This document shows, piece by piece, positions 1,025-43,029 of a stretch of DNA of 64,000 bases. The notes beneath the pieces are model-generated. The model was not told the origin of the DNA and searched no databases. It was given only the letters and a program-made list of their open reading frames with translations. The translations under genes and the position numbers were made by a program. The stretch is from Aquabacterium sp. NJ1 (GTDB taxonomy: Bacteria > Pseudomonadota > Gammaproteobacteria > Burkholderiales > Burkholderiaceae_C), in the NCBI RefSeq assembly GCF_000768065.1, contig NZ_JRKM01000001.1:3206001-3270000 (forward strand), written 5' to 3'. Every line of letters begins with the position of its first letter. Positions within the stretch are counted from its first letter, which is position 1.

Positions 1025-1541
1025 TCAGTTGCCTCAGCAAAGGTTCGATCTTGTCGCGCAGCACTTCGGGCGTGATGGGGCCGATCTGCTTGTAGCGGAT
1101 CACACCTTGCTGGTCGATGATGAAGGTCTCGGGCACGCCGTACACACCGAAGTCGATGCCGACGCGGCCGTCCTGGTCGAACAGGGATTCGACATACGGG
1201 TTGCCGCCTTCGCGCAGCCAGGCCTGGCCGTCAGGGCGTTCGTCCTTGTAGTTCAGGCCGTAGATGGGCACGAGCTTGCGTTGCGCGAACTCGACCAGCA
1301 CGGGGTGCTCTTCACGGCAGGCACCGCACCACGAGGCCCAGACATTGAGCATCCACACCTTGCCCAGCATGTCCTCCTTGCGCAAGGACCGTTGGGCGTC
1401 GGCCAGGGTGGGCAGGTTGAAGGTGGGCGCGGGCTTGCCGATCAAGGGCGAGGGCACTTCACGCGGGTCATGCTTGAGGCCCAGGCCCAAGAACACGGCC
1501 AGCGCCAGGAAGATGCCCAGCGGCAGCAAAAAGCGTTTCAT
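1017..1541 (-). CDS. ccmG: Thiol:disulfide interchange protein CcmG/DsbE
   Basis: 174 residues: an uncleaved N-terminal membrane anchor (about 5-22) followed by a thioredoxin fold with the active site WCGAC (C72, C75) and the conserved cis-proline loop GVPE (135-138). CcmG is the periplasmic reductant that keeps the CXXCH cysteines of apocytochromes, or the CcmH disulfide, reduced; electrons normally arrive from DsbD, and a dsbD gene lies at 40.8 kb. The start ATG overlaps the ccmF stop (ATGA). Length and motifs are normal for the family. Confidence 0.95.
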   Translation of the reverse strand: MKRFLLPLGIFLALAVFLGLGLKHDPREVPSPLIGKPAPTFNLPTLADAQRSLRKEDMLGKVWMLNVWASWCGACREEHPVLVEFAQRKLVPIYGLNYKDERPDGQAWLREGGNPYVESLFDQDGRVGIDFGVYGVPETFIIDQQGVIRYKQIGPITPEVLRDKIEPLLRQLNG

Positions 1542-3511
1542 GCGGCAGCCCCTTTCACGGCTTGCGGGGTGGTGGCCTCGGCCGTCTTGCGGGCACGGTA
1601 ACGGCGGTCACTGGCGGCCAGCACGCCGCCGATGGCCATGATCAGGCAGCCGCCCCAGATCCAGTCCACAAAGGGCTTGTGGTAGATGCGGATGATCCAG
1701 GCGCCCGAGTCCAGCTGCTCGCCCATGGACACGTACAGGTCACGCGTCACGCCGGCATCGATGGCGGCTTCGGTCATGGGGTTGGTCTGCACGCGGTAGA
1801 TGCGCTTTTCGGGGTAGAGCGTGGTGACGGCCTTGTCGCCCCGGGTGATGGCCATCTCGCCGCGTGCCGCCACATAGTTGGGGCCCTGCACCTCGCGCAC
1901 ATCGCGCAGGGTGAACACATAACCGCCCACCTCGGTGGTGTCGTTGACGTTCATCTTGACGTCGCGCTCGGTCTCGTAGGTCTTGACCATGCTGACGCCA
2001 AAGGCGAAGGCGGCCACGCCCAGGTGGGCCACCATCATGCCGATCATGGCGGTGGGCAGCTTGCGCAGCCCGTTGACGATGTTGCTGGCGGGCTTGATCT
2101 TGTCCCACAGGTCCACCAGCACCGAGCTGACGATCCAGAAGGCCATCCACAAGCCGACGGAGGTGCCCAGCGTGATCTTGCCGGCCAGCCATTGCGTGGC
2201 CAATGTGGCGACCACGGACACCACCAGCGCCCAGCGCAGGCGCACGGCCAGCTCAGGCAGCGCGGCCTGCTTCCAGCGTGCCAGCGGGCCCACGCCCATC
2301 AGGAAGACCAGCGGGGTCATCAAGGGCACGAAGACGGTGTCGAAGTAGGGCGGGCCCACCGAGATCTTGCCCAGGCCCATGGCGTCCAGGAACAGCGGGT
2401 AGAGCGTGCCCAGCAGCACCGAGCCGGTGGCCACGATCAGCAGCACGTTGTTGGCCAGCAGCATGGACTCTTTGGACAGCAGGCCAAAGCGCTGGCCCAG
2501 GCCCACGGTGGGCGCGCGCCAGGCATACAGCATCAGCGAGCTGCCGATGACCAGCACCAGGAAGGCCAGGATGAACAGGCCGCGCTTGGGGTCCGAGGCG
2601 AAGGCGTGCACCGATGACAGCACGCCCGAGCGCACGAGGAAGGTGCCCAGCAGCGACAGCGAGAAGGCCGTGATGGCCAGCAGCACCGTCCAGTTCTTGA
2701 AGCTGCCGCGCTTTTCCGTCACGGCCAGCGAGTGGATCAGGGCGGTGCCGGCCAGCCAGGGCATGAAGGAGGCGTTTTCAACCGGGTCCCAGAACCACCA
2801 GCCGCCCCAGCCCAGTTCGTAATAAGCCCACACGCTGCCCAGCATGATGCCGATGGTCAGGCAGACCCAGGCGGCAATGGTCCAGGGCCGTGTCCAGCGG
2901 GCCCAGTTGGCATCGAGCTGGCCGCCCAGCAGGGCCGCGATCGAAAAGGCGAAGGCGACCGAGAAGCCCACATAACCCATGTAGAGCATGGGCGGGTGCG
3001 CCACCATGCCAGGGTCTTGCAACAGGGGGTTGAGGTCACGGCCATCGAGGGCCATGGGCAGCAGGCGCTCGAAGGGGTTGGAGGTGACCAGCATGAAGAG
3101 CAGAAAGCCCACGCTGATCATGCCCATGACCGCCAGGATGCGCGCCAGCACGGCCTGTGGCAGGTGCTGACTGAACTGCGCCACGCACAGCATCCAGAAG
3201 GACAGCATCATCACCCACAGCAGCAGCGAGCCTTCGTGGCCACCCCACACGCCGGCAATGCGGTAGGGCAGGGGCAAGGCGCTGTTGGAGTTCGAGGCCA
3301 CATACAGCACCGAAAAATCATTGCGGATGAAGGACGCCATCAGCGCGAGGAAGGCCGCACCGATCAGCACGAACAGCACACGCGCCAGCGGGCGGGCCAG
3401 GCGCATCAGGGCCGCATCGTTCTTGTAGGCGCCCCACATGGGGACGGCGGAGAGCAGCAGCGACACGGCCAGCGCCAGCACCAGGGCAAGCAGGCCCAGT
3501 TCGGGAATCAT
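1538..3511 (-). CDS. ccmF: Heme lyase CcmF
   Basis: 657 residues, about 15 predicted membrane helices. It carries the tryptophan-rich heme-handling motif [11 protein letters not shown] (235-245) and conserved periplasmic/heme histidines in GGHEGS (H92) and AHPPML (H172). CcmF takes heme from holo-CcmE and ligates it to the CXXCH motifs of apocytochromes. The start overlaps the ccmE stop (ATGA) and the end overlaps the ccmG start. Length matches the family. The opposite strand is open over long stretches here, which is a codon-bias shadow. Confidence 0.97.
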
Positions 3512-3969
3512 TTCATCTCCTTGGCTTGCCCGGCTTCGATGCGGGCGTTGGCTTGTGCGGCGCGCTTGAGCGCTTCAGCGGCTTCAGGCGGCATGTAGTT
3601 CTCGTCGTGCTTGGCCAGGACTTCCTGCGCCACGAAGACACCATCGGGGCCCAGCTTGCCTTGGGCCACCACGCCTTTGCCTTCCTTGAACAGGTCGGGC
3701 AGGATGCCCTGGTAGCGCACCGACACCTTGCGGAAGGTGTCGGTCACCACGAAGTTCACCATCACGCCGTCGCGCGTGACCGAGCCCTTCTCGACCAGGC
3801 CACCGAGGCGGAAGGTGCGGTCCAGCGGGGCCTCCTTGGCCACGATCTGCGAGGGCGTGAAGAAGAACACCAGGTTCTTCTGGAAGGCGTTGAGCACCAG
3901 GGCGGTGGCCACGCCCAGGATGGCCAGGCCACCCAGGATCAGCGTCAGGCGCTTTTTGCGCGGGGTCAT
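3508..3969 (-). CDS. ccmE: Heme chaperone CcmE
   Basis: 153 residues with an N-terminal membrane anchor (about 9-27) and an OB-fold periplasmic domain. The covalent heme attachment motif HDENY is present, with His121, so this is the histidine-type CcmE rather than the cysteine variant. CcmE receives heme from the CcmABCD complex and carries it to CcmF. It sits between ccmD, 1 base upstream, and ccmF, which it overlaps. Confidence 0.97.
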
Positions 3970-3970
3970 G

Positions 3971-4159
3971 TCAGTATTCCTCTTGTTCGGTGGCGTCCAC
4001 CTCTTGGGCGGACTGCCAGGCCTGGCGGCGACGGTGTGCCGCCATCAGTGGCTCGACCACCATGCACAGCAGGGTCACGCCATAAGCGCCCCAGATGTAC
4101 CGGCCGTAGCCATCCATGGCGATGAATTGAGACAGGCTGTGCCATTGCGGTGTCGACAT
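3971..4159 (-). CDS. ccmD: Heme exporter subunit CcmD
   Basis: A 62-residue protein with one membrane helix (about 21-40) and a basic, then acidic, C-terminal tail. It is placed exactly between ccmC and ccmE. The conserved YIWGAYG-like segment preceding the helix is typical of CcmD, a small subunit that releases holo-CcmE from the CcmABC complex. Sequence conservation in this family is low, so the call leans on size, topology and position. Confidence 0.9.
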
Positions 4160-4162
4160 GGC

Positions 4163-4927
4163 TTACTCCTTGGGGCCCGTTGGCCCGGCAGGCCCGTTTA
4201 CCAGCGCCTGCACCCACTGCGTTTCACGCTCGCGCTCCAGCACGATGGCGCGGGTGCGGGTGAAGACCACGGCAAAGGCGTAGGCCCAGAACGCGATCGT
4301 CATCAGCAGCATGGCGGTGAGCATGGTCGAGGCCATCTTGGGCGCGGCCGTCATGCTGATGGAGGCGCCCTGGTGCAGGGTGTTCCACCAGCGCACAGAG
4401 AAATAGATGATGGGCACGTTGATGGCGCCCACCAGCGCAATCAGGGCGCCAGCCGCATCGCTGCGACGCGGGTCGTCAATGGCTTCGGTCAGGGCCATGT
4501 AGCCCAGGTACAGGAAGAGCAGGATCAGCTCGGAGGTGAGGCGCGCGTCCCACACCCACCAGGCACCCCAGGTGGGCTTGCCCCAGAAGGCGCCCGTCCA
4601 CAAGGCGATGAAGGTGAACAGCGCGCCGGTGGGGGCGATGGCGCGCGCCAGCATGGAAGCCAACCGCACCTTGAAGGCCCAGCCCACGGCAGCCCACAAG
4701 GCCATGGCCATGTACAGCACCATGGACATCCACGCAGCGGGCACATGGATGAAGATGATGCGGTAGGACTGGCCTTGCTGGAAGTCCGTCGGGGCCACGA
4801 TGAAGCCCTGGTACAGGCCGGCTGCCGACATGATCAGGCACAGGGCCCATAACCAGGGCATCAGGGCCGAGGCCAGGCGCTCGAACTTCGAGGGCGCAGC
4901 GAAAGTGGTCCAGCTCAGCTTTGACAT
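4163..4927 (-). CDS. ccmC: Heme exporter subunit CcmC
   Basis: 254 residues, six predicted membrane helices, and the WWD-type heme motif WGAWWVWDAR (120-129) with a conserved histidine in HVPAAW (H61). CcmC presents heme to CcmE at the periplasmic face and is needed for the covalent heme-CcmE bond. It follows ccmB by about 20 bases and precedes ccmD by 3. Confidence 0.97.
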   Translation of the reverse strand: MSKLSWTTFAAPSKFERLASALMPWLWALCLIMSAAGLYQGFIVAPTDFQQGQSYRIIFIHVPAAWMSMVLYMAMALWAAVGWAFKVRLASMLARAIAPTGALFTFIALWTGAFWGKPTWGAWWVWDARLTSELILLFLYLGYMALTEAIDDPRRSDAAGALIALVGAINVPIIYFSVRWWNTLHQGASISMTAAPKMASTMLTAMLLMTIAFWAYAFAVVFTRTRAIVLERERETQWVQALVNGPAGPTGPKE

Positions 4928-4946
4928 GGTGGTGTGGTTCGGGGCA

Positions 4947-5603
4947 TCAATCCAGGGCGATCTTCAAGGCGGCGGCGGTGGCCCAGGGCGCGCCCAGCAC
5001 GGTCAGCAGCAACAAGGCGCCCAGCAGCGACAAATGGCCTTCGGGCGACAAGCCCGAGGATACGGCCACCACGGCGCCCGCGCCAAAGATCAGCACCGGC
5101 ACGGCCAGGGGCAAGACCAGCAGCACGATGAGCATGCCACCGCTGCGTAAACCCAGTGTTAACGCCGCGCCCACGCCACCCAGCAGGCTGAGCACCGGCG
5201 TGCCCAGCAGCAGGCTGATGACCAGGGTGAGCAGTTGTTCGCCGGGCAGGTCAAACAACAGGCCCAGCACCGGCGAGGCCAGTACCAGGGGCAGGCCGTT
5301 GATCGTCCAGTGGGAAAAGGCTTTGGCCAGGGCCAGGCCGGGCAGCGAGCGGCCGCTCAACAGCATCTGCTCCAGGCTGCCGTCGGCGAAGTCGCTGCCG
5401 TACAGGCTGCCCAGCGAGAGCAGCGAGGCCAGCAGGGCGCAGACCCACACCACGCCCGGTGCAATGGTGCGCAGGGTTTGCGGCTCGGGCCCCACGCCCA
5501 GCGGGAACAGGCTGGCCGCCACGATGAAGAACACGAGCGGCAACAGGGCTTCGACGCGGCGCCTTGCGGCCAGTCGCCAGTCACGCAGGATCAGGGGCCA
5601 CAT
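4947..5603 (-). CDS. ccmB: Heme exporter permease CcmB
   Basis: 218 residues, six membrane helices, beginning with the family-typical cytoplasmic RDWRLAARRR and including a GSLYGSDFADGSLEQ loop that contacts the ATPase. CcmB is the permease partner of CcmA in the ABC complex that drives release of holo-CcmE. It starts 5 bases after the ccmA stop. Confidence 0.96.
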   Translation of the reverse strand: MWPLILRDWRLAARRRVEALLPLVFFIVAASLFPLGVGPEPQTLRTIAPGVVWVCALLASLLSLGSLYGSDFADGSLEQMLLSGRSLPGLALAKAFSHWTINGLPLVLASPVLGLLFDLPGEQLLTLVISLLLGTPVLSLLGGVGAALTLGLRSGGMLIVLLVLPLAVPVLIFGAGAVVAVSSGLSPEGHLSLLGALLLLTVLGAPWATAAALKIALD

Positions 5604-5608
5604 CGCGT

Positions 5609-6205
5609 TCAGCTCCGTGCCAGGCTGGCCACCGCGGCCAGGTCCAGCTCGATGCGGTCGGGCAGGGTCAGCGCCTGGTGGCTGGTCAGCACCACCGAGC
5701 CGCCTGCCTGACGGTGCGCCTGCAGCAGGGCGTTGAGCGTGGCCACGCCGGTGTCGTCCAGCGCGTCGAAGGGTTCGTCCAGCACCCAGCAGGTGTCGGG
5801 CGGCGTCAGCAGCAGGCGCGCCAGGGCGACGCGGCGGCGCTGGCCTTGCGACAGGGTGCGCACCGGGTTGTGGCGCTTGCCTTTGACACCCATGTGGGCC
5901 AGGGCGGCCAGCAGCTGGGCTTCGTCGGCCTGATCACCATGCAGCTCCACCAGGAAGGCCAGGGCCTCCTGGGCGCTGAGGTCATCTTTCAAGGCGTGCT
6001 GGTGGCCCAGGTAGACCACGCGGGCGGCACGCGCCAGTTGGCCTTCAGCCGGTTCGGACAGCCCTGCCAGCAGGCGCAGCAGGCTGGTCTTGCCCTGGCC
6101 GTTGGGGCCGCGTACCCACAGCAGCTGCCCGGCCTGCACAGTCAGGTCCAGCCGGTCAAACAGCAGGCGGGCACCCCGGCGGCAGGCCAGTGCCTGGGCG
6201 CGCAC
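5609..6205 (-). CDS. ccmA: Cytochrome c biogenesis ATP-binding protein CcmA
   Basis: ABC ATPase with Walker A GPNGQGKTS, signature LSQGQRRRVALA, and Walker B CWVLDEPFDALD. It powers the CcmAB complex of System I. The longest frame begins at a TTG (6244) inside the end of the upstream barrel gene. I prefer the GTG at 6205 because the following residues (RAQALACRRG) align with the usual CcmA N-terminus; this gives 198 residues and a 16-base gap after the barrel stop. Either way the gene is tightly joined to the upstream multiheme cluster, with no room for an ordinary separate promoter. Confidence 0.95.
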   Translation of the reverse strand: MRAQALACRRGARLLFDRLDLTVQAGQLLWVRGPNGQGKTSLLRLLAGLSEPAEGQLARAARVVYLGHQHALKDDLSAQEALAFLVELHGDQADEAQLLAALAHMGVKGKRHNPVRTLSQGQRRRVALARLLLTPPDTCWVLDEPFDALDDTGVATLNALLQAHRQAGGSVVLTSHQALTLPDRIELDLAAVASLARS

Positions 6206-6221
6206 GTGCCAGTGTCCGGGG

Positions 6222-8738
6222 TCAGTAGTCGTATCGGTAGCCAAGGAAGTAGGTGTAGCGGGTGCTGCGGTCGATGCTGGTGCCCTCGGTGCGGGTGTAG
6301 TCCACGTTCAGGTTGGACTCCAGCGTGACGGTGGGGCGAGGCTTGAATGATGCCTTCAAACCGGGCCCCCAGGCGACCGTCGTGATGTTGAGGCCTGAGG
6401 TCAGGTCCTGGCTGACGTTGCGCTGCCAGCGCAGGCCGGGCTCGACCTGCCAGGCATCACCCAGCGGCGTCATGTTGTTGTAGTTGAGCATGTAGGTCTT
6501 GATCATGCGCCCGCGCATGACCGAGGCGGTGAACACATTGGTGTCACGCTCCGAGTACAGGTTGGAGCCGATGGCCAGCAGGCTCAGCGTGCGGGACTGG
6601 CCGCTGTCGGGCTGGCCGGTGGGCAGCACCGGGTTGGGGGCGATGGGGCCGGTGCGGTTGAGGTCCACCGTGGCGCCAGTCTGCCATTGCGTGGTGACCG
6701 GCCGGGTCACCGAGAGCATGGCGTGCGTCCAGTACGACACATTGGATCGCACCAGCTCGCGCAACTGGTCGACGCTGTAGCCGTGGCTCTTCAGGTCATC
6801 GATGGTCTGCGGGATGACGCCCGCGTCCACGAAGTCCTGGAACTGGAAGAACAGGGTCTGGCTCAAGGCCGCCGGGGTGAGGGCGCGCCGCTCGTACAGG
6901 GCGTTGACCGTGGTGTTGTCTTCGGCCATGTACATGCCCTGCAGGCTGGCCACGTTGAGCTTCTTGAAGATCACGTCGTAGTCGGTCGAGCCCATCAGCG
7001 AGGCGTTCTGCGTGAAGTAGCGCAGGTCGGCGCCCACGGCGCGGCGGTCCACCTCGCCATCGACCATGCGTTGCAGCACGAAGAGGGAACCACCCAGGTT
7101 GGGTGTGAGTGCGTCGGCGTCCAGCGCCGTGCCCATGAAGTAGCGCTTTGACTGGCCCAGCTGGTCGGTGGGTGAACCCACGGCGGCCGAGACCTTGAGC
7201 TTGGGCTTGAGCAGGTAGCTGCCGGATGCGCCGTCATAACGGCCTTCGCCACCCCACATCGCCGATTGGCGGCCCAGCCGGGTGCGCAGGCCGTTCTTCA
7301 GGCCCTGGTAGTCGAAGTAGGCGGCGGTCAGGCGGTTGCGGCTGCGGCTCTTGCCCTTGAGCTGGGCGTCGCTCAGCAGGTTGTAGTCGTACTGGTCGCG
7401 GAACACCATCTTCATGTCGCGCTCGGTGTCACGTGAGCGCCAGGTGGTGTCCACATTGGTCGACAGCAGGCGCTGGTCGGTGGTGCTGATGGGGGCCTTG
7501 CTGCGCTTGTCGATCTCGTCGGCGCTCAAGGGCGAGCCGTCGGTGTCGCGCAAGGCCTGGGTTTCGGTGGTGGACTTGCCGCCGTAGTAGTACTGCGAAA
7601 TCGAGCCGGTGACCGTGTTGATGGTGCGCTCGGGCTTGGCCAGCGACTCGATGGTGGTGGCCGGCTTCAGTTCGGTGGGCTGCAGGCCGGCCAGCGCCGC
7701 CTTGACGCGCTCGGCGCCCGCGCCTTGCGGGTACTGCTTGAGGTAGTTCTCGAACTCGGCCTGGGCCTTGGTGGGCTCGCCTTGCGCCAGCCGCACCATG
7801 CCCAGCAGTTCCTGGGCATCGGGGGTGATGGCGGTGGGCGGCAGTTCCAGCAACTGGTTGAGCAGCTTGGCGGCGTCGTCCAGCCTTTGTTGTTCATAGG
7901 CCTGGCGGGACTGATCCAGGAGGTCACGCGCCTGTTGCTCGGGGGCTTGCGGCGTGGCCGGTGTCGACGGGGTGGCGGGTGATGTGGCCGCTGAGGGGGC
8001 CGTGGCGGCGCCGGTTTCAGCCTTGGGCCGAGTCGGCTCGGCCAGCTTGACGATCACGGCCTGCGGGAAGCGAGCCAGCTGTTTGATCGCTGCCTCGGCC
8101 TCTGCCTGCGTGGCGAAATAACCCAGGTCCATTTCGTAGACCTGTTTGCCGTCCACGATGCGCCGCGCGGTGAACACCTGGTAGTTCTGCAAGGCCTGAG
8201 GAATGGGCACATCCACACTGATCTTGGGATCGTTGGATCGGGCCAGCGCGATGACGTAGCGCTGTTCAGGCGTGAGCGCGGGTTCGGCTTTGGCCGAAGC
8301 TTGTCTGACCGCCGCCCCCAGGCCTTCGAGCACCACCTCGATCGTGCGGTCGCCCTTGCCGGTGCGCACCTTGAACGGCGTGCTCTGGCTGAACGAGATC
8401 ACCAGGCGGCGGTTGATGTCGTCGAGCTTGTCGGTGCGCACGGGCTCGTCTTCGATGGTGAGCGTGGGCAGGCCATCGTTCTTGACCACGCGGCGCTCAC
8501 CGGCCACGTAGACCGGCGGCACATCGGTGAGCCGCACCTGGTAGTAGGCCTGGGTCAGGTCCTTGGTGCGAGACGTGGTTGATCGCAGCAGGCTGACTGG
8601 CGTGCTCAGGCGAATCTGCACCACGGCGTTGTTGCCGTCGCGGTGGACGTCGATGTCTTCGAGGATCTCGGCCTGCGCGGACCAGGTGCTCAAGGCGATC
8701 AGCGCGGCCAGCAGCCGGGGGCGTGTCACAAGGTTCAT
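6222..8738 (-). CDS. Large outer-membrane beta-barrel protein with SPOR-like and TPR segments (putative porin of a porin-cytochrome conduit)
   Basis: 838 residues with four visible parts. There is a signal peptide (1-24). Residues about 25-145 are beta-rich and resemble AMIN-type domains. A SPOR-like segment lies near 185-232 (NYQVFTARR to AVIVKL), followed by a Pro/Ala/Thr linker and a TPR region (about 268-352). From about 375 to the end, alternating polar/aromatic strands separated by charged loops end in YFLGYRYDY, an aromatic C-terminus typical of outer-membrane barrels. There is no CXXCH motif. It follows the 40-heme gene by 18 bases, as MtrB/PioB-type porins accompany multiheme cytochromes. 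The porin role is inferred from this context; a polysaccharide-secretion barrel (PgaA/BcsC-like) is the alternative. The N-terminal extension is unusual for an MtrB-type porin. Confidence 0.7.
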   Translation of the reverse strand: MNLVTRPRLLAALIALSTWSAQAEILEDIDVHRDGNNAVVQIRLSTPVSLLRSTTSRTKDLTQAYYQVRLTDVPPVYVAGERRVVKNDGLPTLTIEDEPVRTDKLDDINRRLVISFSQSTPFKVRTGKGDRTIEVVLEGLGAAVRQASAKAEPALTPEQRYVIALARSNDPKISVDVPIPQALQNYQVFTARRIVDGKQVYEMDLGYFATQAEAEAAIKQLARFPQAVIVKLAEPTRPKAETGAATAPSAATSPATPSTPATPQAPEQQARDLLDQSRQAYEQQRLDDAAKLLNQLLELPPTAITPDAQELLGMVRLAQGEPTKAQAEFENYLKQYPQGAGAERVKAALAGLQPTELKPATTIESLAKPERTINTVTGSISQYYYGGKSTTETQALRDTDGSPLSADEIDKRSKAPISTTDQRLLSTNVDTTWRSRDTERDMKMVFRDQYDYNLLSDAQLKGKSRSRNRLTAAYFDYQGLKNGLRTRLGRQSAMWGGEGRYDGASGSYLLKPKLKVSAAVGSPTDQLGQSKRYFMGTALDADALTPNLGGSLFVLQRMVDGEVDRRAVGADLRYFTQNASLMGSTDYDVIFKKLNVASLQGMYMAEDNTTVNALYERRALTPAALSQTLFFQFQDFVDAGVIPQTIDDLKSHGYSVDQLRELVRSNVSYWTHAMLSVTRPVTTQWQTGATVDLNRTGPIAPNPVLPTGQPDSGQSRTLSLLAIGSNLYSERDTNVFTASVMRGRMIKTYMLNYNNMTPLGDAWQVEPGLRWQRNVSQDLTSGLNITTVAWGPGLKASFKPRPTVTLESNLNVDYTRTEGTSIDRSTRYTYFLGYRYDY

Positions 8739-8756: not shown

Positions 8757-11700
8757 TCAATCCCAGCTGCGGTAGGCCGTGCCGCGTGTGCCCAAGGGGC
8801 GGTGGCAGCCGGATTGAGAGCAGTCGGTGACACCGGTCTTTTGTCTGTGGGTCAGCGACTTGCGCTCCATGCTGCCCAGATAGGCCGTACCGGCGTTGTG
8901 GCAGGCATAACACCAGCCTGATCCGCTGCCCTGGCTGTTGTTGTGGTTCATCACGGCGGTGCCGAAGCCGCCCGCATTGGTGTTGGTGTGGCAGGCCTTG
9001 CAGTCCAGCGTCGCGCCATTGATCAGCTGCGTTTCAGGGATGTGGTTGTTGGGCTTGGCGGTGGCGCCGGCGCCGGCATAGGTGGGTGTGTGGCAGGTCT
9101 TGCAGGCCTGCGCGCTCACGGCCGTGTGGTTCATGGTGACGCTGGTCGTCCAGGCCTGCTGCGACTTGTGGCAGCTGTCGCACTTCACGCCGCCCACCTG
9201 GATGGGGATGTGGCTGCTGGGCTTGCCGGTGGCCGTGCTGCCGTTGTGGCAGTTGTCGCAGGTGCCCGTGCCTACCGCATTGGCGGCCGAGTGCGTGTAG
9301 GTGACGCTGGTCCACGAGGCGGTGGACTTGTGGCACGACTCGCAGTTGCTGGCAATGCCCGCGTGCAGCGCGGTGTTGGGCTTGCTGGTCAGGCCATAGG
9401 CTGCGGTGAGGTGGCAGGTGGCGCACTGCCCGATGATGCTGACATTGCTGTGGAAGCGGCCCGGGTTCCAGGCCGCGTAGCCGCTCTTGTGGCAGCTGTC
9501 GCAATTGGTGATGGCCACGCCCGTGATGGATTGATAGGGGATGTGGTTGCTGGGGCGGCCATCGGCTGGCGGGTAGGCGCCAGAGTGGCAGGTCGAACAC
9601 ACGCCTGTGACGGTGACCTGGGTGTGGTTCCACTTGGTGGGCGTCCAGCCCGTGGTGTTGTGGCAGCTGTAGCAGTTGGCTGTCACGGGGATGTGGCTGC
9701 CCGGCTTGCCGGTGGCGGCGCTGCCGTTGTGGCAGCTGGCGCACTGCGTGGCGGCGGTGAACTTGCTGTGGTCCACCTTGGCACCGGTCCAGCCACTGGT
9801 GTTGTGGCAGGACTCGCAGCCGCCGGTCACCGTGGCGTGCAGGCTGTCGGCGGGTTTGCTGGTCAGGCCATAAACCGAGCTGAGGTGGCAGGTGGCGCAC
9901 TGCCCGATGATGCTGACATTGCTGTGGAAGCGGCCGGGGTTCCAGGCGCTGTAGCCGCTCTTGTGGCAGCTGTCGCAGTTGGTGATGGCCGCGCCTGTGA
10001 GCGATTGATAAGGGATGTGGTTGGCGGGCCGGCCGTCCGCTGGCGGGAAGGCGCCGGAGTGGCAAGTCGAGCAGGTGCCGGCCACGGTGACCTGGGTGTG
10101 GTTCCACTTCGTGGGTGTCCAGCCGGTCACGTTGTGGCAGCTGTAGCAGTTGGCTGTCACGGGGATGTGGCTGCCCGGCTTGCCGGTGGCGGCGCTGCCG
10201 TTGTGGCAGCTGGCGCACTGCGTGGCGGCGGTGAACTTGCTGTGGTCCACCTTGGCACCGGCCCAGCCGCCCGTGTTGTGGCAGGACTCGCAGCCCCCGG
10301 TCACCGTGCTGTGGGTGGCGTCGGCGGGCTTGCTGGTCAGGCCATAGGCGCTGTTGAGGTGGCAGCTGGCGCACTGGCCCACGATGCTCACATTGCTGTG
10401 GAAGCGGCCCGGGTTCCAGCTGCTGTAGCCGCCCTTGTGGCAGCTGTCGCAGTTGCTGATGGCCACACCCGTGAGCGATTGATAGGGGATGTGGTTGCTG
10501 GGGCGGCCGTCCGCCGGCGGGAAGGCGCCGGAGTGGCAGGTCGAGCAGGTGCCGGCCACGGTGACCTGGGTGTGGTTCCACTTGGTCGGCGTCCAGCCCG
10601 TGGTGGCGTGGCAGCTGAAGCAGTTGGCTGTCACGGGGATGTGGCTGCCCGGCTTGCCGGTGGCCGTGCCGCCGTTGTGGCAGCTGGCGCACTGTGTGCT
10701 GGCATTGAAGCCGCTGTGGTCCACCTTGGCACCGGCCCAGCCGCTCGTGTTGTGGCAGGACTCGCAGTTGCCCGTCACGGTGCTGTGCGTGCTGTCATTG
10801 GGCTTGGCCGTGAGGCCATAAGCCGAACTCAGATGGCAGCTGGCGCACTGGCTGCTGATGTTGACATTGCTGTGGAAGCGCCCGGGGTTCCAGCTGCTGA
10901 AGCCACCCTTGTGGCAGCTGTCGCAGTTGCCGATGGCCACACCGCTGAGCGACTGGTAGGGGATGTGGTTGGCAGGCCGTCCATCAGCGGGCGGGAACGA
11001 GCCGGAGTGGCAGGTCGAGCAGGTGCCGGTCACGTTGACCTGGGTGTGGTTCCAGCTCGTGGGCTTCCAGCCCGTGGTGCTGTGGCAGGTGCTGCAGTTG
11101 GCCGTGACCGGGATGTGGCTGCCCGGTTTGCCCGTGGCGGTCGAGCCATTGTGGCAAGTGGCGCATTGCGTGCCCGGTTGCAGCTTGTTGTGGTCAACCT
11201 TGACGTTGCCCCAGCCCGTGCTGTTGTGGCAGGACTCGCAATTGCCCGTCACCGTGCTGTGCGTGGGTGTGGCGGGCTTGGCCGTCAGGCCAAAGGCCGA
11301 GGTGAGGTGGCAGCTGGCGCACTGGCCCGATACCGCCACGTTGGCGTGGAACAGCCCGGGGTTCCAGCTGCTGAAGCCCCCTTTGTGGCAGCTGTCGCAG
11401 TTGCCGATGGCCACGCCGCTGAGCGACTGATAAGGGATGTGGTTGGCCGGCCGCCCGTCAGCCGGCGGGAACGAACCGGAGTGGCAGGTCGAGCAGGTGC
11501 CGGCCACATTGACCTGCGTGTGGTTCCAGCTCGTGGGCTTCCAGCCGTTCACGTTGTGGCAGCTGATGCAGTTGGCCGTGACCGGGATGTGGTTGGCCGA
11601 CTTGCCGCTGGCTGTGGCGCCGTTGTGGCACGAGGCGCAGTTGGTCGACGTATTGAAGCCGCTGTGATCGGGCTTGGCGCTGGCCCAGTTGCGTGTGGTG

Positions 11701-12182
11701 TGGCAGCTGTCGCACGCGGCGCGCGTGGGGATGTGGGTGGCGGGCTTGCCCTGCGTGCGCACGCCATCGTGACAGGTCTGGCAACTGGTGCCGGGCGGCA
11801 CGCCCGTGGTGTGGCTGAAGCGCGGGTTGGTGAACGACTGCGTGCCGTGGCAGCTGTCGCAGGTCTGGGTCGTCGTGTTGGTCGGGATGTGGGTGGCGGG
11901 CATCACCACGTTGGACTTGGACAGACGCGAGCCGGTGGTGTGGCAGGTCTGGCAGTCCTTGGGCGTGCCCTTGAAGACCCCGTTGGTGTGGCAGGACTCG
12001 CATCGCAGCGTGCTGTGCGCGCCACTGAGCGGGAAGCCCGTCTTGAAGTGGTCGAACTTGCTGGTGGCGGCGCTCTGGGCCTCAGCCCGCCCGGGCACCA
12101 CACCCAGCATCAAGCCCAGAACCAGCAACAGCGCGAACGCGGCGGCTTGCATCCAGGGTTTGATGAGGTGAGTGGGTGTCAT
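8757..12182 (-). CDS. Secreted multiheme cytochrome c with 40 CXXCH motifs plus one CX4CH
   Basis: 1141 residues. After a signal peptide (about 1-36) I count 40 CXXCH motifs, the first at C61, and a final CX4CH near the C-terminus. Residues 182-971 are five repeats of exactly 158 residues, each with six hemes and recurring motifs such as HIPVTANC, WNHTQV, PPADGRP and WNPGRFH. Many extra histidines could serve as distal ligands. It is a c3/nanowire-like multiheme protein, periplasmic or exported to the surface, and probably passes electrons along a heme chain. Its start lies inside the end of the 24-heme gene; the barrel gene follows 18 bases later. A weak ribosome site precedes the ATG at 12182. 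The family is clear, but substrate and final location are inferred. Confidence 0.88.
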   Translation of the reverse strand: MTPTHLIKPWMQAAAFALLLVLGLMLGVVPGRAEAQSAATSKFDHFKTGFPLSGAHSTLRCESCHTNGVFKGTPKDCQTCHTTGSRLSKSNVVMPATHIPTNTTTQTCDSCHGTQSFTNPRFSHTTGVPPGTSCQTCHDGVRTQGKPATHIPTRAACDSCHTTRNWASAKPDHSGFNTSTNCASCHNGATASGKSANHIPVTANCISCHNVNGWKPTSWNHTQVNVAGTCSTCHSGSFPPADGRPANHIPYQSLSGVAIGNCDSCHKGGFSSWNPGLFHANVAVSGQCASCHLTSAFGLTAKPATPTHSTVTGNCESCHNSTGWGNVKVDHNKLQPGTQCATCHNGSTATGKPGSHIPVTANCSTCHSTTGWKPTSWNHTQVNVTGTCSTCHSGSFPPADGRPANHIPYQSLSGVAIGNCDSCHKGGFSSWNPGRFHSNVNISSQCASCHLSSAYGLTAKPNDSTHSTVTGNCESCHNTSGWAGAKVDHSGFNASTQCASCHNGGTATGKPGSHIPVTANCFSCHATTGWTPTKWNHTQVTVAGTCSTCHSGAFPPADGRPSNHIPYQSLTGVAISNCDSCHKGGYSSWNPGRFHSNVSIVGQCASCHLNSAYGLTSKPADATHSTVTGGCESCHNTGGWAGAKVDHSKFTAATQCASCHNGSAATGKPGSHIPVTANCYSCHNVTGWTPTKWNHTQVTVAGTCSTCHSGAFPPADGRPANHIPYQSLTGAAITNCDSCHKSGYSAWNPGRFHSNVSIIGQCATCHLSSVYGLTSKPADSLHATVTGGCESCHNTSGWTGAKVDHSKFTAATQCASCHNGSAATGKPGSHIPVTANCYSCHNTTGWTPTKWNHTQVTVTGVCSTCHSGAYPPADGRPSNHIPYQSITGVAITNCDSCHKSGYAAWNPGRFHSNVSIIGQCATCHLTAAYGLTSKPNTALHAGIASNCESCHKSTASWTSVTYTHSAANAVGTGTCDNCHNGSTATGKPSSHIPIQVGGVKCDSCHKSQQAWTTSVTMNHTAVSAQACKTCHTPTYAGAGATAKPNNHIPETQLINGATLDCKACHTNTNAGGFGTAVMNHNNSQGSGSGWCYACHNAGTAYLGSMERKSLTHRQKTGVTDCSQSGCHRPLGTRGTAYRSWD
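9270..11639 (-). repeat. Five tandem 474-bp repeats encoding six-heme modules
   Basis: Cysteine positions recur every 158 codons: the corresponding motif starts at residues 182, 340, 498, 656 and 814. The DNA copies are very similar; the stretches near 9676 and 10150, for example, are nearly identical. The frame and period are preserved exactly across all five copies, and a diverged sixth copy with a 3-residue insertion follows. The array points to recent duplication or ongoing homogenisation, and copy number may differ between strains. It is coding sequence, not a CRISPR or satellite. Confidence 0.93.
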
Positions 12183-14082
12183 GAAGGAAGGGCGGGGTAC
12201 TGCAAACGGCTACTGCAACTGCTAAATGTGAAAACTGCACATTCATTGTAGGGTCTTGTTGCTGACCCAGGCTGAAGTGTTTTTCAAGTTGTTTCCAGCC
12301 TTTGGTCGAATGGCACTGCTCGCAGCGGCCGCCGAACTGGCCGTCATGGGTGTCGTCCTTGCTGTGGCAGTCGAAGCAGCGCTGGCCCGTCTCGGCCACG
12401 GCTTTGCCTCTGGGCGCCGGCTGGGCGTGACACGCTTCACAACTCACGCGGATGTGCTCGCCGGTGAGGGGGTAAGACGTCTGCTTGTCGTGATTGAAGT
12501 CCCAGGATTTCCAGCTGCGGGTGTTGTGGCAGGTTTCGCAGCGGGCCCCGAACCGGGCCTTGTGCCGATCGTCTTTTCGGTGGCAGGCCACGCATTCGCG
12601 CTGCACGTCATTGAAACGTTTTGTTGCATGACAGGCTTTGCATTCGATGCGGTTGTGGCTTCCGGTTAACGGGAACCGTGTCTTGCCATGGTCGAACAAG
12701 GTGGTCTTCCAGTCCTTGTCGCTGTGGCATTGCGCGCATTGCTTGCCCTGCGTGCCTTCGTGCTTGTCGTCCTTCTTGTGGCAGCTGTAGCAGGCCATGT
12801 CCGTGTTGCGGAAGGCCTTGAGCCCGCCCTGGTGGCAGTCGCTGCACTTGATGGCGCTGCGCGCGTGCGCGTTGCGCAGCGCAAAGCGGGTCTTGTCATG
12901 GTCGAAGCGGCCGGCGGTGGCGCGCCAGTCGCGCTCGGAGTGGCAGTCCACACAGGCCTTGCCCAGCGTGCCTTCGTGCTTGTCGTCCTTCTTGTGGCAG
13001 GCGTAGCAGTCCATGGGCGCTTCTTTGTACATCGCGCTCTTGTGGCAGTCCTTGCAGTCTACCTTGCCGTGTTTGCCCAGCAGCGGGAAGCGCGTCTTGC
13101 CGTGGTCGAAACGGGGTGGGTCCTTCCAGCTGCTTTCGCTGTGGCAGGCCGCGCAGTCCTTGCCCAGGCTTTCCTTGTGCTTGTCGTCCTTCTTGTGGCA
13201 ATCCCAGCAGGTCTCGGGCAGCTTCTGCTTGTACAGCGTGCCGGTGTGGCAGTCGGTGCAGGCGGTCTTGCGGTGCTTGCCCTTGAGGTCGAAAGACGTG
13301 TCGGTGTCGTGGTTGAAGTTGACCGTCTTCCATGACTTGGCGCCGTGGCAGGTCTCGCACTTGGCGCCGAACTGGCCTTTGTGCTCGTCATCCTTCTTGT
13401 GGCAGCCGATGCAGGTCTTGGGCGTGTCCTTGTAGCGGCCGTTGTTGTGGCAGTCGTCGCACTTGGCCTTGGTGGCGTGTTTGTCTTCCAGCACGAAGTG
13501 GGTCTTCTTGCCGTGGTCGAAATCGGTGTTCTTCCAGCCGGTCTCGCTGTGGCAGTCCGAGCACTTGCCGCTGATGCCGCCCTTGTGCACATCGTCCTTC
13601 TTGTGGCAGCTCAGGCAGTCGCTGGCGGCTTGCCAGTACTTCTTGCCAGCGGTGTGGCACTTGTCGCAGGCTACGTCCAGGTGCTTGGCCTTGAGCCCGT
13701 AGTCGGTCTGCTTGTGGTCAAAGCGTTTGGTGTCCAGCTGCACGATTTTGGCCTGCCGGCCCTTGTGGTCGGTGTGGCAGCTGCGGCAGGTGGCGTTGGG
13801 CTGGCGGCCGTGAAAGCCCGTGTGCGCCTTCATGTCCTGGCCGACTTCCTTGTGGCAGGCCATGCACAGGGCGTCCTGGCCCTTGGGGTTGAAGCGCACA
13901 TGGCAGTTGGCGCATTCGTGCTCGACCTTGGCGTGGCCTGTGATGACCTCACCCGGCGCCAGCACGGATTCGATGGATTGTGCGTGCGCAGGCGAGCACA
14001 GGGCCGCCAACAGGGCTGCCAGCAGCAGCCCGATCAGCAAGCCGACGATCGCGCCACCGCGGCGCAGCCAGCGCAGGTTCAT
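12082..14082 (-). CDS. Secreted multiheme cytochrome c with 24 CXXCH motifs
   Basis: 666 residues with a signal peptide (about 1-34) and 24 CXXCH motifs, from CANCH near residue 57 to CEQCH near 600. From about residue 130 the chain repeats a three-heme unit of roughly 62-66 residues with the signature CHKKDDKHEG and FDHGKTRFPL, rich in lysine and histidine. It is probably the periplasmic electron carrier between the inner-membrane component and the 40-heme protein (inference from order). The last 60 or so residues have no heme motif and overlap the next gene's start by 101 bases. A one-base shift near 12280 would end the protein at 12243 instead, so the tail may reflect a frameshift or lost stop. 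Confidence 0.88.
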   Translation of the reverse strand: MNLRWLRRGGAIVGLLIGLLLAALLAALCSPAHAQSIESVLAPGEVITGHAKVEHECANCHVRFNPKGQDALCMACHKEVGQDMKAHTGFHGRQPNATCRSCHTDHKGRQAKIVQLDTKRFDHKQTDYGLKAKHLDVACDKCHTAGKKYWQAASDCLSCHKKDDVHKGGISGKCSDCHSETGWKNTDFDHGKKTHFVLEDKHATKAKCDDCHNNGRYKDTPKTCIGCHKKDDEHKGQFGAKCETCHGAKSWKTVNFNHDTDTSFDLKGKHRKTACTDCHTGTLYKQKLPETCWDCHKKDDKHKESLGKDCAACHSESSWKDPPRFDHGKTRFPLLGKHGKVDCKDCHKSAMYKEAPMDCYACHKKDDKHEGTLGKACVDCHSERDWRATAGRFDHDKTRFALRNAHARSAIKCSDCHQGGLKAFRNTDMACYSCHKKDDKHEGTQGKQCAQCHSDKDWKTTLFDHGKTRFPLTGSHNRIECKACHATKRFNDVQRECVACHRKDDRHKARFGARCETCHNTRSWKSWDFNHDKQTSYPLTGEHIRVSCEACHAQPAPRGKAVAETGQRCFDCHSKDDTHDGQFGGRCEQCHSTKGWKQLEKHFSLGQQQDPTMNVQFSHLAVAVAVCSTPPFLHDTHSPHQTLDASRRVRAVAGSGLDAGCGARAG
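12226..12242. promoter_or_regulatory. Dyad ATGTG-N7-CACAT upstream of the 40-heme gene
   Basis: A 17-base imperfect palindrome with 5-base perfect arms, 44 bases before the 40-heme start codon and within the AT-richer tail of the 24-heme gene. Its core TGTG-N7-CACA is also found before the first gene of the cluster (15155-15169). It could be the operator of an internal promoter. This is inference; one such core is expected about once per 64 kb by chance. Confidence 0.35.
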
Positions 14083-14115: not shown

Positions 14116-15075
14116 TCAATAAGCATGCACGGCCACGACATGGAAGAGCGCGCACAGCACCATGATCCACACAAAGGGCACATGGGCCACGTGCCACATC
14201 GAGAACAGGCGCTCGAAGGTCTGGAACTGCGCGGCTCGCTGCACGGCCATGGCGTAATCGTCCACCTGGGCGCAGCAGGCGCGGTAGCGGGCCACGGCTT
14301 GCGTCTTGGACCAATTCTGCCCGTGTGCCGGCTCATTGGCGCCCTGCTTGATGCGTTGCTTCACCTCGGCCTTGCACTGCTGGGCCACGCGCTGGCGCTG
14401 GATGGGCAGCACGAACAGGCGCCACAGGTGGCGTGCGCCTCGCGCCGGGCCGTTTTCCAGGGCGTCACGCTCGAAGGCGTGCAGGGCTTCCAGCACACTG
14501 GGCATGGCCTGCAGGCGGCTGTCGGCGGCCTGATGCTGGTTGCTCATGGCGCTGCGCAGCCCGGCCAGGGTGGCCTTTTCGCCGCGCAGATCGGCATGCA
14601 GCCGCACATACAGGAAGCGCCCGACCACGCCGCTGAGCGCCACGATGACCATGGAAAACAACGCCACGGCCGCGTTGGTGGAGCCGATGTGAAAGGTCGA
14701 GTGCAGCAGGATCAGCCAGGGCCCCATGATGCCCAGCACCATGTGCGCCATGAACCAGTATTTGGAGGCGCCCCAGTTGTAGGTGACGCGCCAGCGCTTG
14801 CGCAAGGGGTAGGTGAACAGCAGCAGCATGGACACGCCGCCTGCGACGCCCAGCCAGTAGCCAGTGCGCGACCAGGGCGTGAACCAGCCTTGCCGCGAGA
14901 CCCACCAGGCGCTCAGCGTGAGGGCGGCCACACCGAAGTAGATGAGCAGGTCGGTGCGCAGCCGGGCACGTGCTGCGCCCAGGCCGCCCTTGGCCTCGGC
15001 CTTGCCAGCCTGGCCGGCAGAGGGCGGTGCACTGGCCGTGTCGGCCGCGTTGAAGGTGGAACTGGTGGCACTCAT
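14116..15075 (-). CDS. Inner-membrane protein with possible b-heme histidines, first gene of the multiheme cytochrome cluster
   Basis: 319 residues from the ATG at 15075. The open frame extends much further upstream, but that part is antisense to the neighbouring oxidoreductase. Five predicted membrane helices lie near 43-60, 72-88, 105-125, 134-156 and 294-318, with a long basic soluble stretch (about 157-290) between the fourth and fifth. Histidines H111, H125 and H129 in helix 3, and H295, H298, H312 and H317 in the last helix, are placed like ligands of a b-type cytochrome. It likely links quinone or the divergently encoded flavoprotein to the periplasmic 24-heme protein, whose gene follows after 33 bases. 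I do not recognise a named family, and heme binding is inference. Confidence 0.75.
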   Translation of the reverse strand: MSATSSTFNAADTASAPPSAGQAGKAEAKGGLGAARARLRTDLLIYFGVAALTLSAWWVSRQGWFTPWSRTGYWLGVAGGVSMLLLFTYPLRKRWRVTYNWGASKYWFMAHMVLGIMGPWLILLHSTFHIGSTNAAVALFSMVIVALSGVVGRFLYVRLHADLRGEKATLAGLRSAMSNQHQAADSRLQAMPSVLEALHAFERDALENGPARGARHLWRLFVLPIQRQRVAQQCKAEVKQRIKQGANEPAHGQNWSKTQAVARYRACCAQVDDYAMAVQRAAQFQTFERLFSMWHVAHVPFVWIMVLCALFHVVAVHAY

Positions 15076-42486: not shown

Positions 42487-42920
42487 GAAGTCAGCCAGAC
42501 CGCCGCTGGTGCAAGGCCCGAAAGGGCGCACTGGAGGAAGGTCCGGACTGCACAGGGCAGCGTAGGAGGTAACACCTCTCCACCGCAAGGTGAGGATCAG
42601 AGCAACAGAGACGAGTCCGGACGGGTTCCGCTACGGGTGGTCTGTGAGGCGTCGGCGTCAGCCGACGGCCCTTGCGAAGGCAAGGGCTCGTGTGAAAGCA
42701 CGAACCGAGCAGCACCCCAGGCGGGCAAAGCCCGCCTGGGGTGAAACGGGCAATCTCTACGCGCAGCAACACCAAATAGGCACACATTGACCTGGCCCGG
42801 GGAGTGTGCGGGTAGGTGGCATCGAGCCGTTCTGGTGACAGGCGGCCCAGAGGAATGGCGGTCACGGCCCAGCGTCGCGAGACACGGGGCTGCACAGAAT
42901 CCGGCCTATCGGCTGACTTC
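42487..42920 (+). ncRNA. rnpB: RNase P RNA
   Basis: The ends pair as helix P1 (GAAGTCAGCC at 42487 with GGCTGACTTC at 42911). Universally conserved blocks are visible: GAGGAAGGTCCGGACT and GCACAGGGCAG near 42534, GGTGAAACGGGCAATCT near 42740, and CACAGAATCCGGCCTA near 42894. The size, about 434 bases, fits a bacterial A-type RNA with a longer P12/P17-type arm (CCCAGGCGGGC/GCCCGCCTGGG). A run of six T follows at 42925. It is the catalytic subunit that trims tRNA 5' ends. Confidence 0.97.
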
Positions 42921-43029
42921 ACACTTTTTTCACATTGATGGCCTGCGCCAGGTCATTTGTTCGCGCTGAGGCATTCAAGTTCTGCGTTTTACTGGCCGAA
43001 ATCTCCGACGTATTGCGGAGAGTCCGACC

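Follow-up and report, generated by a model that had tools for sequence, protein, structure and literature searches.

A probable PCC3 surface cytochrome of Aquabacterium built from six-heme modules that vary in number among relatives

Introduction

Little is documented of how multiheme wires lengthen and shorten over evolution, and the locus described here raises the question of how such a wire may change its length. It lies in a 64,000-nucleotide stretch of DNA from Aquabacterium sp. NJ1 (the window), where one gene encodes a cytochrome with tandem six-heme repeats. The four-gene PCC3 set and the motifs of its inner-membrane protein were described by He et al. 2017 (PMC5566968), who had already remarked on very large numbers of hemes (median 34 and 21), a density of one heme in about 26 residues, and repeats within the chain. 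A survey of Gallionellaceae found 10-35 hemes in the surface cytochromes and 21, 24 or 27 in the periplasmic ones, and its models were long and for the most part linear (PMC10734462). We examined the repeat structure of the cytochrome, the gene cluster around it and the number of its modules among relatives.

Results

Five six-heme modules between two caps

The spacing of the heme motifs, 25-23-25-32-26-27 (158 residues or 474 bp in sum), recurs five times, from heme 5 to heme 34. Tandem Repeats Finder reports a period of 474 with 4.8 copies (9378-11630, 85% matches, score 2926), and this periodicity is far beyond chance. The ORF scan and Tandem Repeats Finder thus agree with the first-pass annotation, which had described five six-heme copies with a 158-residue, 474-bp period in a protein with 40 CXXCH motifs; in the register used here, the five modules occupy 9369-11738 (Table 1). 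Its description of neighbouring copies as near-identical was too strong, since DNA identity between whole modules is 71-89% and no exact repeat exceeds 131 bp.

The layout of the whole chain is four cap hemes, five modules of six, six hemes of a degenerate last module and a terminal CX4CH, which gives 41 motifs in about 1,105 mature residues, or about 27 residues per heme. Pfam Cytochrome_C7 matches the protein in 12 stretches. The CX4CH at residue 1121 is the 41st likely heme site; it is kept in all relatives in which the C-terminus is present and, where the C-terminus is complete, lies inside the tail motif DCSxSGCHxPLGxxGxxYxxW or a close variant. At the other end of the chain, hemes 1-2 align with a unit of the neighbouring 24-heme cytochrome with a score of 124, against a best score of 92 among 1,000 shuffles that left C and H in place. 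Because the N-terminus is made of its partner's kind of unit, this homology suggests that it would be the inner end of the chain, where electrons are handed over.

Two motif types alternate within each module: type A (K/R-P...H-I-P or similar, lacking Trp) and type B (W followed by H). The six-heme module is therefore three A/B heme pairs, and this pair structure fits the variants found in other genomes: the 8-heme modules, with an extra A/B pair, of an Aquabacterium-type genome with 46 hemes in total (G041; L087, 8932-12834), the modules two hemes short (G430, L015), and a two-heme repeat of 47 residues in another family (G505). Free histidines number exactly one per heme motif (41 of 41 in the mature chain), usually 7-14 residues upstream of the motif, with one further histidine in the signal peptide. 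As read from the sequence, this count is what a chain with all 41 hemes His/His-ligated would need.

Table 1. Annotated features of the cytochrome locus, in window positions
Feature	Positions	Strand	Remarks
ccmF/nrfE-type heme lyase	1538..3511	-	
ccmE	3508..3969	-	
ccmC	4163..4927	-	
ccmB	4947..5603	-	
ccmA	5609..6244	-	
Putative outer-membrane porin	6222..8738	-	838 aa; TPR at about residues 274-350; end ...FLGYRYDY
Probable surface multiheme cytochrome (PCC3 extracellular MHC)	8757..12182	-	1,141 aa; 40 CXXCH + 1 CX4CH
C-terminal cap	8760..9368	-	degenerate sixth module (six hemes), terminal CX4CH heme and tail
Module 5	9369..9842	-	residues 781-938
131-bp tract in module 5	9657..9787	-	matches the module 4 tract; likely donor
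Module 4	9843..10316	-	residues 623-780
131-bp tract in module 4	10131..10261	-	identical to module 5; putative gene-conversion recipient
Module 3	10317..10790	-	residues 465-622
Module 2	10791..11264	-	residues 307-464
Module 1	11265..11738	-	residues 149-306; six hemes
N-terminal cap, hemes 1-4	11739..12062	-	hemes 1-2 homologous to unit of 24-heme partner
Predicted Sec signal peptide	12075..12182	-	residues 1-36; end ...GRAEAQ; predicted from the sequence
24-heme periplasmic-type cytochrome	12082..14082	-	666 aa ORF; eight triheme units; 24 CXXCH
PCC3 inner-membrane protein	14116..15075	-	319 aa from ATG at 15075; two WX3HX13H + SGVVG

The gene cluster is of the PCC3 kind

The gene order is inner-membrane protein, 24-heme cytochrome, 40-heme cytochrome, putative porin and then the ccm genes. 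The PCC3 inner-membrane protein of about 300 residues, with two WX3HX13H motifs and one SGXXG, is found at 14116-15075, where the motifs read WFMAH-x13-H, SGVVG and WHVAH-x13-H. The 24 CXXCH motifs of the periplasmic-type cytochrome lie within the range of about 21-27 hemes of PCC3 periplasmic cytochromes, and the 41 motifs at about 27 residues per heme agree with the second, repeat-containing PCC3 cytochrome of very many hemes and few residues per heme. The cluster shares with PCC3 the four-gene set, its porin being putative here, the inner-membrane motifs, the heme-rich repeats and the 26-27 residues per heme. This membership was missed by the first-pass annotation.

The sole Pfam match of the putative porin is TPR, and a homologue of it adjoins the cytochrome in relatives. 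The MtrB/PioB porin family that defines MtrAB and MtoAB (PF11854) had no match anywhere in the whole genome. The RuBisCO large chain has one match in the genome. The genes ccmA-B-C-E-F (1538-6244, - strand) directly follow the porin gene, and all or some of them are likewise placed in many relatives, so that heme attachment machinery is linked to heme-rich proteins.

Modules of unequal age and traces of recombination

Whole-module DNA identity is 0.77 between modules 1 and 2, 0.81 between 2 and 3, 0.88 between 3 and 4, 0.89 between 4 and 5, and 0.71 between 1 and 5. Synonymous divergence between the copies (0.27-0.78) overlaps the ortholog dS to G019 (0.31-0.54), with which the window has five orthologous module positions in common. 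The five modules thus go back at least to the divergence from G019, and a recent burst of duplication was rejected. Across most Aquabacterium-type genomes the copies of module 1 are orthologs of one another, and in the more distant ones the internal modules cluster by species.

Modules 4 and 5 are identical over 131 bp in the window and differ at 12 positions in the G019 counterparts (P ~1.5e-4, codon-weighted permutation with codon-variability weights). We read this tract as gene conversion. Since the module 4 tract has 7 differences from G019 module 5 and 11 from G019 module 4, module 5 was most likely the donor.

Similar traces were seen in relatives. In G018, assembled with three modules, module 1 is a hybrid that is module 1-like for 316 bp and then module 2/3-like, as would be expected for the product of unequal exchange. 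Four other relatives (L015, G251, G371 and G276) contain module pairs that are 96-99% identical; the identity is 97.5% in L015 (434 bp exact), 96% in G251 (409 bp exact) and 98.9% in G276. Such pairs are apparent signs of recent copying.

Surface heme number varies beside a near-constant partner

Seven of the 42 genomes of the genus, with that of the window counted, and 23 of the 401 of the family carry the cluster. In the family, the surface cytochromes have 16, 16, 20, 22, 22, 26, 28 (three times), 34 (seven times), 38, 40 (three times), 46 (three times) and 70 CXXCH motifs, with 1 to 10 modules detected; most of these counts equal 4 + 6n + 6, which corresponds mostly to six-heme steps. The periplasmic partner has 24 hemes in 34 of 36 complete genes and 27 in the other two. 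One of the latter accompanies the 70-heme surface cytochrome with its ten modules (L070, G184). A tree of 24 proteins built from their non-repeat caps requires at least 14 changes of heme count and places G019, with 40 hemes, and G018, with 28, nearest to the window gene.

In other families, surface counts were 10, 11, 19 or 26 hemes, or 62. The 62-heme cytochrome was found in three genera of two families (L091/L093/L094; G614, G464 and G673) with all 62 motif spacings identical. Length lability is thus not universal, and copy number can be stable.

These results bear out the earlier proposal of a modular heme chain with changing copy number: relatives have 1 to 10 modules, and a conversion tract and a hybrid module mark exchange between copies. 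Equal divergence and a fixed number had been named in advance as contrary evidence; the copies are unequally diverged and their number varies across relatives.

The earlier concern that the array is prone to collapse in short-read assemblies was overstated for the window and is a fair worry for its relatives. Judged from the assembly, collapse in the window is unlikely, because no exact repeat exceeds 131 bp, just five 127-mers occur more than once and the array lies inside a 4,869,099-base contig. A number of the relatives, the key G018 among them (a 14.9-kb MAG contig), are MAGs from short reads; the contig stops within the gene in L078, L079, L081, L086, L088 and L098, and an N gap lies inside it in G666. 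In L073 (G369) the surface cytochrome is split over two frames (26 + 14 hemes), through a frameshift or an error of sequencing within the array. In this family, therefore, short-read genomes can give wrong heme counts. Single-contig or near-complete genomes lie within the range of counts (34 in G132, 16 in G252, 16 in G383 and 38 in G049), so the spread as a whole is no assembly effect.

Comparison with known heme chains

AlphaFold2 gave a mean pLDDT of 32.4 for the whole protein (alignment A1) and 35.6 for a 22-heme relative (A2), and both models are unusable. A PDB search with the single protein sequence had no match, including OmcS, OmcE and OmcZ; a profile search gave weak matches, the best to High-molecular-weight cytochrome c (1.9e-4), which were probably driven by CXXCH spacing.

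In architecture the surface cytochrome resembles the GSU1996 kind of Geobacter periplasmic nanowire cytochromes, single chains of repeated c7/c3-like heme units with four triheme c7 domains (TIGR04257). This c7 model scores 55.5 on the surface cytochrome (cut-off 40). The repeat here, in contrast, is six hemes in 158 residues; moreover, all hemes have a free histidine, the chain is predicted on the surface and a putative porin gene is adjacent. GSU1996 has its closer analogue in the 24-heme partner, which is built of triheme units. With MtrCAB and MtoAB the cluster shares a porin, here a putative one, with inner and outer multiheme cytochromes, although heme counts are 24 and 41 here and 10 and 10 there. 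OmcS, OmcE and OmcZ resemble the present chain in the long-range stacked-heme conduction proposed outside the cell. Unlike it, they are non-covalent polymers of small subunits.

Discussion

Collectively, our results make it likely that the product of 8757..12182 is the repeat-built surface cytochrome of a PCC3 porin-cytochrome conduit, and that recombination adds and removes its modules; the recombination account is itself well supported. New here are the resolution of the 158-residue module into three A/B pairs, the copy-number ladder, the near-constant 24-heme partner and the traces of recombination, and we found no such account of module structure and length change in the literature searched.

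Electrons would pass between the inner-membrane b-type cytochrome-like protein and the 24-heme chain across the periplasm, and from there through a porin-held outer-membrane junction to the 41-heme chain, which would reach the substrate outside the cell. As a single polypeptide of bis-histidine hemes, the surface chain would begin with two hemes of periplasmic type, continue through the five modules and finish in a capped C-terminus. Recombination between homologous modules, by unequal exchange and by gene conversion, would keep the internal copies alike and alter the chain in length, for the most part a whole six-heme module at a time, without shifting its ends. On this reading, the surface chain could have a variable reach as a conduit or antenna for electrons, and the 24-heme chain could bridge the whole width of the periplasm; the partner probably stays at 24 hemes because it has a fixed gap to bridge, the surface chain being free to vary. 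In solved heme wires the rise per heme is about 0.8 nm, from which we estimate lengths of about 19 nm for 24 hemes and 33 nm for 41.

We infer the surface location of the chain, its conduction of electrons, their direction and the substrate. Uptake is somewhat favoured as the direction because of the RuBisCO large-chain match. In Sideroxydans ES-1 both PCC3 clusters are down on Fe(II) (PMC8788666), a response that we counted against the conduit explanation, and in strain CL21 expression of both clusters lay above the mean, a rise in the inner-membrane gene of one accompanying iron oxidation (PMC12442390).

Conduction is not the only role that such a protein could have. PCC3 cytochromes have been proposed to act as capacitors (PMC10734462), as has GSU1996, a periplasmic dodecaheme cytochrome (PMC10138318), and uniform bis-His ligation is compatible with capacitor and conduit alike. 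We consider it unlikely that the surface cytochrome is mainly an electron store near the cell surface, with heme number setting capacity and not reach: a through-path is favoured by the order of the porin-conduit genes and by the start unit of periplasmic type, and storage alone leaves a constant 24-heme partner beside a varying surface chain unexplained. Much less probable again is polymerisation into an OmcS/OmcE-like filament with the modules as linked subunits. Each module does have the six hemes of hexaheme OmcS, all bis-His, but the subunits are covalently joined here, a putative porin gene is adjacent, and the protein has neither a sequence relation to the solved nanowires nor a usable model.

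A further alternative concerns history, namely that copy number is frozen, with old duplications sorting by lineage and no present recombination between copies. The age of the window modules (dS 0.31-0.54 to G019 against 0.27-0.78 between copies) and the 62-heme pattern fixed in three genera would be expected in that case. The conversion tract, the hybrid module, the near-identical recent copies in relatives and at least 14 count changes argue for recombination instead, which makes a frozen array rather improbable, though not as remote as the filament.

If modules recombine at present, the locus might be tunable in length, ongoing exchange giving mixed wire lengths within one population that are selected by the distance or scatter of the electron donor, with the 24-heme wire constant as a ruler of periplasm width. 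We offer this as a speculative extension that we regard as doubtful. The natural lengths of 16-70 hemes beside a near-constant partner provide a ready series for testing wire length against reach, rate and storage in electron transfer beyond the cell.

Other observations in the window

An antisense ORF of 1,102 codons (8943-12251, + strand) was set aside as a composition effect, 36 of 500 synonymous codon shuffles having equalled its length. Elsewhere in the window, a class A RNase P RNA (Rfam RF00010) lies at 42487-42924 on the + strand.
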